The translations under genes were made by a program, and so were the position numbers. 64,000 nt of DNA from an uncultured Spirochaetaceae bacterium (GTDB lineage Bacteria; Spirochaetota; Spirochaetia; Sphaerochaetales; Sphaerochaetaceae), in NCBI GenBank assembly GCA_944388955.1, contig CALXKJ010000009.1:1-64000 (forward strand). The letters run 5' to 3'. Below the pieces are notes generated by a model, which had not been told where the DNA came from, did no database searches, and worked only from the letters and a program-made list of their open reading frames with translations. Shown piece by piece: positions 50,915-59,909 of the stretch (positions within the stretch are counted from its first letter, which is position 1; each line of letters begins with the position of its first letter).

Positions 50915-50939
50915 GATAGGCAGCGCGGTGCTGCCTATC
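50915..50939 (+). terminator. Terminator after the second GH105 gene
   Basis: GATAGGCAGC pairs perfectly with GCTGCCTATC around GCGGT, followed by TTTCTTAT. Confidence 0.85.
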
Positions 50940-51515: not shown

Positions 51516-51818
51516 ATGTTGCCACTGTTAACAAATATGCCAAAGGATGTGCTTATTGCGCAGCTTAAGGATGGCTTGGTGCTCCTGGTGCTCGGAATGG
51601 GTACGGTTTTCGTGTTCCTCGTAATCCTCATCTATGCGACAAAGCTTATGAGCCGGATTGTCAGGGGAATCGACAAGAACCATCCTGCGAACAACGCACC
51701 AGTTGCGGCAGCTGCTCCGAAAGCAGCAGTACAGCAGAAAGCAGCACCCGTACAGACGGGAGATGACGCTGCAGTCGCAGCAGCTATTGTAGCTGCCTAT
51801 GACAAATCAAGGAATTAA
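51516..51818 (+). CDS. oadG: Oxaloacetate decarboxylase gamma subunit
   Basis: 100 residues. One membrane span (DGLVLLVLGMGTVFVFLVILIY, about 19-40), then an Ala/Pro/Gln-rich linker and a charged C-terminus, exactly the plan of OadG. It anchors the alpha subunit to the beta subunit in the Na+-pumping decarboxylase. AGGAG lies before the ATG. First gene of the order oadG-oadA-oadB, with 14 bases before oadA. Confidence 0.9.
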   Translation: MLPLLTNMPKDVLIAQLKDGLVLLVLGMGTVFVFLVILIYATKLMSRIVRGIDKNHPANNAPVAAAAPKAAVQQKAAPVQTGDDAAVAAAIVAAYDKSRN

Positions 51819-51832
51819 AAAGGGGTACCGCA

Positions 51833-54028
51833 ATGAGCAAGAAGAAAGTAGATTTCATGTGCACGGCATTCCGCGATGGATTCCAGTCCGTCTATGGAGC
51901 TCGTGTATTCACAAAGGATTTCATGCCAGCTGTTGCAGCCGCAAGAGAAGCAGGCATAACTCATTTCGAAGCAGGTGGTGGAGCAAGATTCCAGTCCCTC
52001 TACTTCTATACAAATGAAGATGCATTCGAGATGATGGATGAATTCAGACGCGTTGCAGGTCCCGATGCAAATCTCCAGACACTCGCAAGAGGCGTCAATG
52101 TCGTAGGCCTTGATTCACAGCCGAGAGACATCATCAAGCTCCATGCACAGCTTTTCAAGAAGCATGGAATGACAACAATCAGAAACTTCGATGCACTCAA
52201 TGACGTGAATAACCTCATCGATAGCGGAAGAGCAATCCATGAAGCTGGACTCAAGCACGAAGTGACTGTAACGATGATGAGCCTTCCTGAAGGTGTCACA
52301 GGTGCTCATACACCTGACTTCTACGAGCGCATTCTCCGCGAGATCCTCGATGCTGGAATCCCATTCGATTCCGTATGTTTCAAGGATGCTTCCGGTACAT
52401 CAACACCACACAATGTCTATGAGACAATCAAGAGAGCAAGAAAGCTCCTTGGACCGAATGTAAAGGTCGTATTCCATTCTCATGAGACAGCTGGTGTATC
52501 AATCCAGCAGTATATGTCAGCTCTCGACGCAGGCGCAGACAGCATTGACCTCTCAATGTCTCCATGCTCAGGTGGAACATGCCAGCCAGACATCCTCACG
52601 ATGTGGCACGCACTCAGAGGCACCGACTATACTCTCGATGTCGATATCAACAAGGTACGCGAAGCAGAGAAAGTATTCGAGAAGTGCATGGAGGACTACT
52701 TCCTGCCACCAGAGGCAACAGCAGTCAATCCTGAAATCCCATTCTTCCCACTTCCGGGCGGCGCTCTCACAGCAAATACACAGATGCTCAGAGACAATGG
52801 CCTCATGGATAAGTATCCACAGATTGTCGAGGCAATGGGCGATACAGTAGCAAAGGGTGGTTTCGGTACTTCCGTAACACCTGTTTCCCAGTTCTATTTC
52901 CAGCAGGCATTCAACAATGTCATGTTCGGACCATGGAAGAAGTTCGCTGAAGGCTATGGCAAGATGGTTCTCGGCTACTTCGGCAAGACACCAGTCGCAC
53001 CGGATCCGGAAGTCGTAAGACTTGCTTCTGAGCAGCTTCACCTCGAGCCTACAACAGAGAAGGTTGTAGACATCAACGACAAGGACCCGAAGAAGGGTGT
53101 CGAAGCAGCAAAGAAGATGCTTGAAGAGGCAAACCTCCCGATTACAGATGAGAACATCTTCATCGCGGCAGCTTGCAAGGAGAAGGGAATCCTTTACCTC
53201 ACAGGCAAGGCCAAGGTTAACGGCGTAAGACTCAAGAGCGAGATGAAGAAGGAAGCTGACGCTAAGGCAGCAGCTGCTAAGCCATCACATGCTGGTAACG
53301 GTGAATACACAGTCACAGTCAACGGCAAGGCATATGGCGTCAAGCTCGCTGGCGGCAGCGCTACTGTCAATGGCGTTCAGTATCCATACTCCATCGCTGA
53401 TGGAATCACAGCACCTCAGGCAGCAGCACCGGCTCAGGCAGCTCCTGCTGTACAGGCAGCACCAGCAGCAGTCGTTACAGGAGCAGAGAACATCGAAGCA
53501 CCGATGCCGGGCCTCGTACTCCGCATTGATGTCAAGGTAGGAGACGCTGTCAAGAAAGACCAGGTTGTTGCGGTCATGGAAGCTATGAAGATGGAGAATG
53601 AAATTTACGCTCCTTGCGATGGTGTTATCTCCTCTATTGCAGTATCTCAGGGCCAGCAGCTTCAGTCTGGAGAACTCCTGATGACAATCGGAGGAGTTGC
53701 ACAGGCTGCTCCTGCTGTACAGGCAGCACCGGTACAGCCAGAACCAGCTCCAGTAGCCCCTCAGGCAGCACCAGAGCCAGCTCCAGCAGCTCCTCAGGCA
53801 GCTCCTGCTGCAGGAAGCACAACTATTGAGGCTCCGATGCCGGGTCTTGTCCTCCGCCTCTCTGTAAAGAAGGGTGACAGTGTCAAGAAAGATGATGTCG
53901 TCATGGTCATGGAGGCTATGAAGATGGAAAACGAGATCTACGCACCTTGCGATGGCGTTGTTCAGGACATCCTTGTAAATCAGGGTGACCAGCTTTCCGC
54001 AGGTACTGCGCTTATGATTCTCGGTTAA
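51833..54028 (+). CDS. oadA: Oxaloacetate decarboxylase alpha subunit with two biotinyl domains
   Basis: 731 residues; transfers the carboxyl group of oxaloacetate (or a related acid) to biotin. Residues about 1-300 are the carboxyltransferase barrel (FRDGFQSV, CFKDASGTSTPHNV, FHSHETAGVS, DLSMSPCSGGTCQPD), followed by the PYC_OADA domain to about 460. Then come two biotinyl domains, each with EAMKMENEIYAPCDG: biotin sites Lys586 and Lys697, 111 residues apart, joined by Ala/Pro/Gln-rich linkers. Usual OadA proteins have about 590-600 residues and one such domain. The DNA of the two copies is similar but not identical. Confidence 0.93.
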   Translation: MSKKKVDFMCTAFRDGFQSVYGARVFTKDFMPAVAAAREAGITHFEAGGGARFQSLYFYTNEDAFEMMDEFRRVAGPDANLQTLARGVNVVGLDSQPRDIIKLHAQLFKKHGMTTIRNFDALNDVNNLIDSGRAIHEAGLKHEVTVTMMSLPEGVTGAHTPDFYERILREILDAGIPFDSVCFKDASGTSTPHNVYETIKRARKLLGPNVKVVFHSHETAGVSIQQYMSALDAGADSIDLSMSPCSGGTCQPDILTMWHALRGTDYTLDVDINKVREAEKVFEKCMEDYFLPPEATAVNPEIPFFPLPGGALTANTQMLRDNGLMDKYPQIVEAMGDTVAKGGFGTSVTPVSQFYFQQAFNNVMFGPWKKFAEGYGKMVLGYFGKTPVAPDPEVVRLASEQLHLEPTTEKVVDINDKDPKKGVEAAKKMLEEANLPITDENIFIAAACKEKGILYLTGKAKVNGVRLKSEMKKEADAKAAAAKPSHAGNGEYTVTVNGKAYGVKLAGGSATVNGVQYPYSIADGITAPQAAAPAQAAPAVQAAPAAVVTGAENIEAPMPGLVLRIDVKVGDAVKKDQVVAVMEAMKMENEIYAPCDGVISSIAVSQGQQLQSGELLMTIGGVAQAAPAVQAAPVQPEPAPVAPQAAPEPAPAAPQAAPAAGSTTIEAPMPGLVLRLSVKKGDSVKKDDVVMVMEAMKMENEIYAPCDGVVQDILVNQGDQLSAGTALMILG

Positions 54029-54041
54029 GAGGTAAATTGAA

Positions 54042-55286
54042 ATGGACGCAATCTTAAATGGACTTGTAAGACTCTGGACGTCGACAGGAATCTACGGATT
54101 CCTGTTCCCAGAGAAACTGCAGGAATCTTGGGGAGCTGGAGCCGCGGAGGCAGGCGCAGTCGGTATCGGCTGTGCGCTCATGATCCTCGTAGGCTTCCTT
54201 CTCCTCTACCTTGCTATAAAGAAGGGATTTGAGCCGCTTCTGCTCATTCCGATTGCCATGGGCTGTATTCTCTCGAATATCCCATCAGCATTCATCGCAT
54301 CTGTTGATCCGACATCAGGCGATGCAGGATTCATCAAGATTCTCTACGATGCGGGTATTGAATCGGGACTCTTCCCTGTTCTTATCTTCATGGGTGTTGG
54401 AGCTATGACAGACTTTGGACCGCTTATCGCGAATCCGAAGACACTGCTTCTTGGCGCTGCAGCTCAGCTTGGCATCTTCACGGCACTTATCGGAGCGCTT
54501 CTGCTCTCATTCCTGCCAGGAATCAACTTCGACCTCAATGTTGCCTCTTCAATTGGTATCATCGGAGGTGCTGATGGTCCTACGGCTATATATGTAACAA
54601 GCCGCCTTGCACCGGAATATCTCGGCTCTATCGCAGTCGCCGCATATTCCTACATGGCCCTTGTACCTATCATCCAGCCACCTATCATGAGAGCTCTTAC
54701 AACAAAGAAGGAAAGACTCATCAGAATGCAGCAGCTCAGACCAGTATCAAAAGTAGAGAAGATCATCTTCCCGATCATGGTACTTACAGTCTGCGCGATT
54801 CTCCTGCCTTCCGCTTGTCCTCTTATCGGAGCACTCATGTTCGGAAACCTCGCTACTGAGTGTGGTGTGATCAAGAGACTTTCAGACACAATGCAGAATG
54901 CTCTTATGAACACTGTTACTATCTTCCTCGGCCTCTCTGTCGGCTCGAAGATGGCTGCTGACAAGTTCCTCAACCTCGAGACACTTGGAATCCTCGTTCT
55001 CGGCATGGTCGCGTTCGGCGTTGGAACAGCAGGCGGTGTTCTCCTTGCAAAGCTTATGAACAAGCTCGATCCGAAGCATCCTGTCAATCCGCTTATCGGA
55101 TCTGCAGGTGTATCGGCAGTTCCTATGGCCGCTCGTGTATCTTCGAAAGAAGGCCAGAAGGAAGATACGCAGAACTTCCTTCTCATGCACGCTATGGGAC
55201 CGAACGTATCAGGTGTTATCGGCTCAGCAGTTGCAGCAGGCGTTCTGATTTCTGTTGTACCGATGATGATGGGCGTTTTCGCCTGA
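54042..55286 (+). CDS. oadB: Sodium-translocating oxaloacetate decarboxylase beta subunit
   Basis: 414-residue integral membrane protein with about nine to eleven spans. It decarboxylates carboxybiotin and pumps Na+ out. Key motifs: [19 protein letters not shown] near 170-188, with the Asp of the GGADGPT segment essential in studied enzymes, and [17 protein letters not shown] near 200. The C-terminal [19 protein letters not shown] and [17 protein letters not shown] are also typical. GAGG precedes the ATG, 13 bases after oadA. Strong terminator downstream. Confidence 0.94.
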
Positions 55287-57350: not shown

Positions 57351-59909
57351 ATGATTATCATCAATGGCGTGGGATACAATCCGGAAGCAGATACTACGCT
57401 GCTCGACTATCTTAGAAACACACTGCATCTTACCGGAGCAAAAGACGGATGCTCGGAAGGAGCATGCGGGGCATGCTCAGTAATCATCAACGGAAAGCTC
57501 AGACGCGCGTGCCGTGAAAAGCTCTCCAAGCTCGATAATGCCGAAATAATAACAATCGAAGGACTCTCGGAGAGGGAAAAGAAAGTATATTCTTATGCAT
57601 TCGCTAAAGCTGGCGCTGTACAGTGCGGTTTCTGCACTCCAGGCATGGTCATGGCGGCAAAAGCTCTGATAGACACGAATCCAGAGCCTTCTCAGGAAGA
57701 TATCAGGAAGGCAATCAGGGGCAATATATGCCGCTGTACAGGTTATAAGAAAATCGAGGAGGCGATACTCCTCGCGGCCAAGATCTTCAAAAGCGGTGCT
57801 GAAACTCCTGAAGATGATAGAGATCCAAGGCTTTCCGGCGACATGAAGCGTATCGATGCGGATGCGAAGACTCTCGGCTCAGGTATTTACACAGATGACA
57901 TCCACATCGAAGGAATGCTCTATGCATCCGCGCTCCGCTCCCCAGAGCCACGTATCCGGCTCCTTGGTATCAACACGGAGGAAGCTGAGAAGGATCCAGA
58001 TTTCATAAAGGTAATAAAAGCCGAGGATGTGCCTGTGAACATACACGGACATATCACTGCGGACTGGCCTGTACTGATAGAGAATGGAAAGACTTCAGCT
58101 TATATCGGCGATGCGCTGTGCATTGTAGTTGCATCTACTGAGGAAGCACTGAAACGTATAAAAGACAAGATTGAAATCAGATATGAGAAGCTTGAAGGCG
58201 TGTTCAGCCCAGAAGATGCCAGAAGTGACACTATAGAAGTCCATGAAGGGCAATCAAATCTGTATGACCATGAACACGTTTCCAGAGGCAATGCAGAGAA
58301 AGCCCTCTCTGAAAGTGATTACATCGTTGACGAGGTTTATACGACACCATTCACGGAGCATGCCTTCATGGAGCCTGAATGCGCTGTGGCCATGCCATAC
58401 AAGGAAGATGGCGTATTCGTCTACGCCAGCGACCAGAGCATATTCGATGACCAGAAAGAGATTGCGAGGATGCTTGGCATCGACAAGAGCAAAGTCCGCG
58501 TCAGGGCGACACTTGTAGGAGGAGGCTTCGGCGGAAAGGAAGATATGTCTGTGCAGCACCACGCCGCGCTTGCTGCATGGCTGCTGAAGAAGCCTGTGAA
58601 AGTAAAGCTTTCGAGGCAGGAAAGCCTTATAGTACATCCAAAGCGGCATCCGATGAGAATGCATATAAGGCTTGGTGCTGACAGAAACGGTTATATCAAA
58701 GGTATGAAGGCTGTAATAACAGCTGATACAGGCGCATATGCCTCCCTTGGCGGTCCTGTATTGCAAAGAGCGTGCACACACGCTTCAGGTCCCTATGATT
58801 TCCAGAACTTTGAAATCGATGGCTATGCGTACTATACAAACAACGTCCCAGCAGGAGCTTTCAGGGGCTTCGGTGTCACGCAGTCATGCTTCGCGATTGA
58901 ATCAGCGCTCGATGAAATGGCGGCTAAAGTCGGTATCGACTCCTTCCAGATAAGGCTTATCAACGCATTAAAGCCTGGCGATGTGATGCCAAATGGACAG
59001 ATAGCCTCCCCCGATACAGGAATCATCCAGTGTCTTGAGGCTGTGAAAGATGCATACTACTCTTCGGATAGAACAGGCATCGCCCTTGCGATGAAGAACA
59101 GCGGTATTGGTGTAGGCTCTGATGACATTGGACGCTGTATCCTCTCTGTCGAGAATGGAAAGATTCATATACGCACATCCGCCGCATGCATGGGACAGGG
59201 CTTGCAGACTGTCATGCTGCAAATCGCAGCTGAGACGCTCTCTATGCCATCCACAGCTTTCATCGTCGAGCCTCCTGATACGGAGCGCACCCCAGACAGC
59301 GGTACATCAACAGCATCAAGGCAGACAGCTTTCACCGGCGAAGCAGTCAGAAGAAGCGCTATCAAACTGAAAGAGGCGCTCTCTTCAACTACTCTTGAAG
59401 GTCTTGAAGACCAGGAATTCTATGGTGAGTTCCTCTTTAAGACAGATCCAATAACAAGCACTAAAGCGAATCCCGTATCACACCTCGCTTATTCATATTC
59501 CGCTCAGGTTGCTGAACTCGATGAGAACAATAAGGTAAAGAAAATCACAGCCGCATGTGACGCGGGAACCGTAATCAACAGGACAGCTATCGAAGGCCAG
59601 ATTGAAGGCGGCGTACTGATGGGCATGGGATATGCCCTGACAGAGGATTTCATCATCAATAACGGTGTGGTGGAATCAAAATACGCGACGCTTGGACTGC
59701 TGAGGGCAACAGACAGGCCAGAGATTGAATCAATTCTCGTGCAGGCGGAAGGAAAACTTGAGACATCCTATGGAGCAAAAGGCATTGGTGAGCTATGCAC
59801 AATACCAACAGCACCGGCAATAGCGAATGCATACAGACGGCTTGATGGCAATCCAAGAAGAAGCCTTCCTCTTGTCGGCACTCCATACTCAAGAAAGAAA
59901 TCGAGATAA
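57351..59909 (+). CDS. Molybdopterin hydroxylase with fused 2Fe-2S domain (xanthine dehydrogenase family)
   Basis: 852 residues. Residues 1-150 hold two 2Fe-2S clusters: Cys34, 39, 42 and 54 (plant type) and Cys92, 95, 127 and 129. From about 170 to the end it is the large Mo-cofactor subunit: GSGIYTDDI near 180, HAFMEPECAVA near 335, GGGFGGKEDMSVQHHAALAA near 388, RGFGVTQS near 500, MGQGLQT near 605 and the catalytic Glu in GAKGIGE near 812. No FAD domain and no maturation genes are adjacent. The plan matches aldehyde oxidoreductase and the putative selenium-dependent xanthine dehydrogenases of anaerobes. Substrate likely a purine or another N-heterocycle, unproven. Confidence 0.85.
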   Translation: MIIINGVGYNPEADTTLLDYLRNTLHLTGAKDGCSEGACGACSVIINGKLRRACREKLSKLDNAEIITIEGLSEREKKVYSYAFAKAGAVQCGFCTPGMVMAAKALIDTNPEPSQEDIRKAIRGNICRCTGYKKIEEAILLAAKIFKSGAETPEDDRDPRLSGDMKRIDADAKTLGSGIYTDDIHIEGMLYASALRSPEPRIRLLGINTEEAEKDPDFIKVIKAEDVPVNIHGHITADWPVLIENGKTSAYIGDALCIVVASTEEALKRIKDKIEIRYEKLEGVFSPEDARSDTIEVHEGQSNLYDHEHVSRGNAEKALSESDYIVDEVYTTPFTEHAFMEPECAVAMPYKEDGVFVYASDQSIFDDQKEIARMLGIDKSKVRVRATLVGGGFGGKEDMSVQHHAALAAWLLKKPVKVKLSRQESLIVHPKRHPMRMHIRLGADRNGYIKGMKAVITADTGAYASLGGPVLQRACTHASGPYDFQNFEIDGYAYYTNNVPAGAFRGFGVTQSCFAIESALDEMAAKVGIDSFQIRLINALKPGDVMPNGQIASPDTGIIQCLEAVKDAYYSSDRTGIALAMKNSGIGVGSDDIGRCILSVENGKIHIRTSAACMGQGLQTVMLQIAAETLSMPSTAFIVEPPDTERTPDSGTSTASRQTAFTGEAVRRSAIKLKEALSSTTLEGLEDQEFYGEFLFKTDPITSTKANPVSHLAYSYSAQVAELDENNKVKKITAACDAGTVINRTAIEGQIEGGVLMGMGYALTEDFIINNGVVESKYATLGLLRATDRPEIESILVQAEGKLETSYGAKGIGELCTIPTAPAIANAYRRLDGNPRRSLPLVGTPYSRKKSR

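Follow-up and report, generated by a model that had tools for sequence, protein, structure and literature searches.

Organisation of the oad locus

The window, by which is meant the whole 64,000-nucleotide stretch of spirochaete DNA analysed here, contains the genes for the gamma, alpha and beta subunits of a biotin-dependent decarboxylase (Table 1). Since oadG and oadB flank oadA and all three genes lie on the forward strand, they constitute a complete sodium-pump operon. A strong terminator-like hairpin with an 11-bp stem and a T tract (50915-50939, forward strand) is located between this operon and an upstream glycosidase-like gene. Elsewhere in the window, an 852-aa open reading frame (57351-59909, forward strand) appears, as judged by eye from its sequence, to be a fusion of a 2Fe-2S domain and a molybdenum-hydroxylase large subunit with no FAD domain between them.

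Table 1. Coordinates of the oad genes and of the C-terminal subdivisions of oadA in the window
Feature	Position	Strand	Evidence
oadG, gamma subunit, 100 aa, N-terminal membrane helix, Ala/Pro-rich tail	51516..51818	+	Pfam OAD_gamma E 3.5e-19; TIGR01195 above cut-off
oadA, alpha subunit, 731 aa, carboxyltransferase barrel, PYC_OADA association domain and two biotinyl domains	51833..54028	+	ORF translation, Pfam, structure matches
First flexible linker, before domain 1, aa 523-548	53399..53476	+	pLDDT below 50
Biotinyl domain 1, aa 551-621, K586 (codon 53588-53590)	53483..53695	+	Biotin_lipoyl E 6.7e-21
Ala/Pro-rich linker between domains, 39 aa, aa 622-660	53696..53812	+	72% Ala+Pro; pLDDT below 50
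Biotinyl domain 2, aa 661-731, K697 (codon 53921-53923)	53813..54025	+	Biotin_lipoyl E 5.8e-21
oadB, membrane beta subunit, 414 aa, carboxybiotin decarboxylase/sodium pump	54042..55286	+	Pfam OAD_beta E 9.7e-159; E 8.3e-139 to S. Typhimurium OAD beta 6IVA

Identity of the alpha subunit

OadA combines an HMGL-like carboxyltransferase barrel, which scores just below the Pfam cut-off (26.2 bits against 29), with a PYC_OADA domain that lies well above it (98.3 bits against 27). Its closest solved structures are the carboxyltransferase/BCCP portion of pyruvate carboxylase (the beta subunit of the two-subunit enzyme), transcarboxylase 5S and the carboxyltransferase domain of Vibrio cholerae OadA, the last of these (2NX9) being a fold match with an rmsd of 3.8 Å. 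Residues D15, K184, H215 and H217, which we take to be candidate metal-binding or active-site residues, are invariant in 42 aligned relatives. The protein is not a member of the curated oadA equivalog, as it reaches only 364.8 bits against the TIGR01108 cut-off of 756.5, and it also falls below the NCBIfam cut-offs for pyruvate carboxylase subunit B and transcarboxylase 5S. Given this score and its pump operon context, it was therefore named an OadA-type alpha subunit of a divergent subfamily, in keeping with the original prediction of its identity. The neighbouring OadB retains the equivalents of D203, Y229, N373, G377 and S382 of the Klebsiella/Salmonella protein (D178, Y204, N349, G353 and S358, respectively), whose catalytic and sodium-site roles have been described (PMC7274780), and an equivalent of R389 is also present.

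A two-subunit pyruvate carboxylase (PycA/PycB) was considered and rejected, as a dedicated biotin carboxylase partner is absent from the genome. The single match to Biotin_carb_C lies within an acetyl-CoA carboxylase/fatty-acid cluster and, because this is the only biotin carboxylase, a carboxylating role for OadA is unlikely. Judged from its sequence and gene order, the locus is best named a putative sodium-pumping oxaloacetate decarboxylase, OadGAB, with an alpha subunit of a divergent subfamily. It shares with the sodium-pumping enzymes of Klebsiella, Salmonella and Vibrio the three subunits, the carboxyltransferase/association/biotinyl layout and the OadB catalytic residues. In contrast to those enzymes, its alpha subunit possesses two biotinyl domains rather than one and lies below the TIGR01108 cut-off. 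Only one copy of OadA was found in the genome, a draft of 33 contigs.

Two biotinyl domains on one polypeptide

Translation and the Biotin_lipoyl (Pfam) matches, which were scored separately for two stretches of OadA in the scan of the genome, bear out the proposal that the protein carries two full biotin-attachment domains, with K586 and K697 each situated in an identical EAMKMENEIYAPCDG motif. The Ala/Pro-rich character ascribed to the arms is likewise evident in the composition of the inter-domain linker. The interval originally assigned to the pair (53500-54028) takes in both domains, although its start falls just inside domain 1. In both domains the MKM lysine motif reads EAMKMEN which, together with the predicted folds, identifies them as biotin-type rather than lipoyl-type carriers. 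The AlphaFold model of OadA (mean pLDDT 75) predicts that both are folded, with pLDDT mostly 77-95, as barrel-sandwich domains in which the lysine occupies the hairpin between strands 578-584 and 587-592 in domain 1 and strands 689-695 and 698-703 in domain 2. The linkers are predicted to be disordered, with pLDDT under 50 at residues 523-548 and 622-658. One candidate biotin ligase (PF03099) is encoded in the genome. The retained MKM lysines, the purifying selection described below, the predicted folds and this ligase candidate together make it likely that both biotin arms of OadA are functional.

The two domains are 70% identical to one another. At the DNA level they are linked by a direct repeat of 135 nt with 77% identity and a spacing of 333 nt, and around the two lysines the copies are 67% identical, the longest exact run in common being 14 nt. 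A repeat of this kind is far beyond chance, yet the copies differ at 23-33% of bases (67-77% DNA identity), so that neither a recent duplication nor an assembly stutter can account for it. The nearest relative, at 94% identity, shares this two-domain architecture. The draft state of the genome, coupled with the location of near-identical repeats at contig ends in relatives, could be taken to suggest that the second domain was created by an assembly or sequencing artefact. This is almost certainly not the case, given the divergence of the copies and the fact that dozens of independent genomes, that of the isolate Bullifex porci (L049) and closed genomes consisting of a single contig (G076 and the Treponema-like G284, G338, G417, G447, G465, G468 and G501) among them, show the double architecture as well. 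A near-identical third copy, such as occurs in relatives, could nevertheless have been collapsed in this draft assembly. Several contigs of other genomes end inside the biotinyl repeat region (L026 in G043, L136-L137 in G036, L145 in G045 and L138 in G002), as would be expected if near-identical repeats break short-read assemblies.

Distribution of domain number

A survey of domain counts in spirochaetes, proposed as a check on the original prediction, revealed OadAs with one, two or three biotinyl domains. Within the family of the window, 139 genomes were searched and 98 distinct complete OadAs extracted, of which 59 carry two lysine-bearing domains, 14 three and 21 one, the remaining 4 lacking any (one of these four being a frameshifted copy). 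The genus of the window alone accounts for 30 double and 10 triple proteins, and the double proteins include those of the single-contig genome G076 and of B. porci. In L183 (G081:C4), oadA is interrupted by a frame change immediately ahead of its single biotinyl domain, owing to a sequencing error or to breakage of the gene.

Treponema-like genomes, among them single-contig ones, harbour another OadA subfamily, which shares about 34% identity with the first. Here 41 of 50 proteins are double, 8 single and 1 triple, in a set drawn preferentially from the top matches to a double query and in which one of the 41 (L290) belongs to the first subfamily; in the match table, however, most genomes also show a match that spans the full length, at about 690 aa. 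An OadA of around 800 aa with three biotinyl domains (L275, G383:C56) represents an independent triple within this second subfamily. Two domains are thus ordinary on the OadAs of the window's family and on Treponema-like OadA, an outcome that the original prediction had itself named as one that would refute it. Doubles also occur outside the family (G387, G165 and L066). Beyond the spirochaetes, where coverage consisted of two phylum samples, one double (G907) was present among about a hundred OadA-like matches in the sample of the phylum of a Kiritimatiellota genome. The listed matches from the other sample, of the phylum to which a Desulfovibrio-like genome belongs, all stopped short of the second domain, a comparison in which distant tandem copies could be missed.

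The tandem domains had been put forward as a novelty, on the grounds that known OadA proteins have one. This view has to be abandoned, both on account of the double and triple proteins that make up 59 and 14 of the 98 in the family, and because, in 2010, the genome paper on Geobacter bemidjiensis ascribed two biotin attachment domains to the OadA of that species, in contrast to pump-associated homologues, and suggested that it cooperates with GcdA (PMC2996986). The double-domain OadA is real, ordinary in its lineage and not without published precedent. The Geobacter protein (Gbem_1454) resembles the OadA of the window in its two attachment domains but is 60% identical to the Klebsiella type and has no OadB or OadG homologues in its genome, whereas the protein described here is encoded in a full pump operon. 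In the open-access papers searched, no description was found of OadAs with two or three such domains, whether pump-associated or from spirochaetes. What appears to be undescribed there is the repeated multiplication of arms in pump-associated OadAs, with all lysines kept and both domains similarly constrained. This corrects the assumption of a single carrier for pump-associated OadA and affects estimates of biotin stoichiometry in spirochaetes.

A separate group of proteins has lost the MKM lysine from the C-terminal domain of OadA (L185, L186 and L187, from one genus of the family, together with L225 and L229), such that this domain resembles a non-biotinylated barrel-sandwich domain. No carrier gene was present within the few kilobases examined around these five genes.

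Evolution and selective constraint on the arms

A tree built from 139 OadA cores can be reconciled with the observed domain numbers only by invoking 22 or more changes, a soft figure as many of its forks are weakly supported. The biotinyl domains themselves were placed on a tree of 224 domains, which are short and therein poorly resolved. In the genus of the window, domains 1 and 2 fall into separate groups, indicating that the duplication predates the species; since these orthologous groups span the genus, a duplication private to this genome was ruled out. The domains also keep consistent differences in their C-terminal strands across the genus. For five other proteins (L149, L132, L133, L219 and L220), a protein's own two domains pair together, which points to independent duplications or homogenisation. 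All 14 triples have first and second domains that are 94-99% identical, and a third that matches domain 2 of double relatives; the inner arm has therefore been tandemly duplicated repeatedly and recently. The identical repeats in these genes extend to 153 nt and, as repeats of such length are possibly collapsed or broken in short-read assemblies, triples may be undercounted.

Such lability raises the question of whether the additional arms are of any consequence. Biotinyl/linker repeats may simply grow and shrink by slippage or recombination, in a near-neutral drift of copy number whereby extra arms are tolerated rather than selected, and the many changes on the tree, the recurrence of triples with nearly identical inner copies and the apparent frequency of reductions to one domain are all consistent with this. 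An extra arm free to decay should, however, leave dead copies behind, unless such copies do harm or are rapidly removed, and the attachment lysine is present in every domain of all 76 multi-domain OadAs (62 double and 14 triple). Moreover, dN/dS is near 0.1 in both domains (0.113 for domain 1 and 0.121 for domain 2), compared with 0.048 for the core and 0.207 for the inter-domain linker, the fastest-evolving part of the protein; these values are approximate, as synonymous sites are near saturation. Domains 1 and 2 are thus under similar purifying selection, and drift of this kind appears an unlikely explanation for the arms as a whole.

The separate groups and consistent strand differences in the genus of the window, along with the additional reach of around 110 residues available to the outer arm, could instead reflect a division of labour, in which the inner domain would mainly serve the carboxyltransferase and the outer, on its longer tether, OadB or the neighbouring alpha subunit of a dimer. 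Against this, the two domains of each of the five self-pairing proteins resemble one another more than any common inner or outer type. Furthermore, we know of no case of carboxyl transfer from biotin to biotin. This arrangement is accordingly considered quite improbable.

A second OadB

The original prediction envisaged that two arms might speed carboxyl transfer to OadB or allow one alpha subunit to serve two beta subunits. The genome does encode another OadB, which stands alone and has its catalytic residues intact (L217, G000:C23:147-1286); its contig begins 146 bases upstream of it, and a membrane ORF of 91 aa comes after it. No biotin carrier was found near this second oadB gene, either here or in its relatives L237-L244. 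As OadA and AccB are the only carriers found in the genome, the second OadB may borrow the arms of OadA. The duplicated arms might, on this basis, exist to supply two acceptors, either the operon OadB and the stand-alone one or another carboxyltransferase, as in the sharing with GcdA suggested by the Geobacter authors (PMC2996986). Among near-complete genomes, nevertheless, 5 of the 40 with a two-domain OadA have a single OadB, and 7 of the 16 with a single-domain OadA have two or more. Comparison of independent pairs on the tree revealed no association between OadB number and domain number, although informative pairs were few and the power correspondingly low. A second OadB could, in any case, use the same arms whatever their number. 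Two acceptors are thus a highly improbable reason for the duplication and, of the two purposes originally envisaged, extra carrier capacity provides the best reading of the data, whilst that of one alpha subunit for two beta subunits finds no backing in this low-power comparison.

A proposed model of redundant swinging arms

The reading that we favour, and regard as reasonably probable, is that of an OadGAB in which the alpha subunit bears duplicated, functionally equivalent and redundant swinging arms. The carboxyltransferase barrel of OadA would pass CO2 from oxaloacetate onto biotin, and either biotin, attached to K586 or K697 and each on its own flexible tether, would ferry the carboxyl group to OadB, which would decarboxylate the carboxybiotin and move sodium. 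The arms, being equivalent, would provide more carriers per alpha subunit and a longer reach, such that one could be loaded while the other is unloaded. It follows from this model, as a matter of inference, that both lysines would be biotinylated, that both would cycle and that turnover or robustness would be raised. Several observations sit less comfortably with redundancy. Many relatives manage with a single domain, and the number of repeats drifts easily, so the extra arm may be nearly neutral. In addition, homogenisation is weaker than full interchangeability might predict, and the distinct domains of the genus, around 70% identical, allow for some division of labour.

The logic of redundant arms would be that of E2p, which has one to three lipoyl domains. 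Why several E2p arms should exist when one suffices is an old question in the lipoyl field. In both systems, tandem swinging arms that are around 70% identical are joined by flexible linkers and vary in number; the OadAs possess tandem homologous carriers, one to three among relatives, with every acceptor site kept. For E2p redundancy has been shown, its three lipoyl domains, 73% identical, acting redundantly (PMC8421416). E2p differs in that it carries lipoate rather than biotin, its arms are N-terminal to the acyltransferase core and the reaction is unrelated. Another point of comparison is the glutaconyl-CoA decarboxylase of Clostridium symbiosum, also a sodium-pump decarboxylase with two biotin carriers and Ala/Pro linkers. 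Its carriers, GcdC1 and GcdC2, are separate chains (PMC7145394), so that the comparison drawn in the original prediction is accurate for this species. That enzyme differs from the one described here in having each carrier on a polypeptide of its own and a carboxyltransferase with a different fold.

A broader proposal, advanced here only tentatively, is that the pump decarboxylases of spirochaetes have become E2p-like by convergence, with two or three arms frequently gained and lost in each of two distantly related OadA subfamilies, as carboxyl flux or partner sharing was selected for. If true, the multi-lipoyl principle would thereby gain its first multi-arm biotin counterpart within an ion pump. 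Close relatives bearing one, two or three biotin arms on very similar OadA cores offer natural material with which to address why several arms are maintained.
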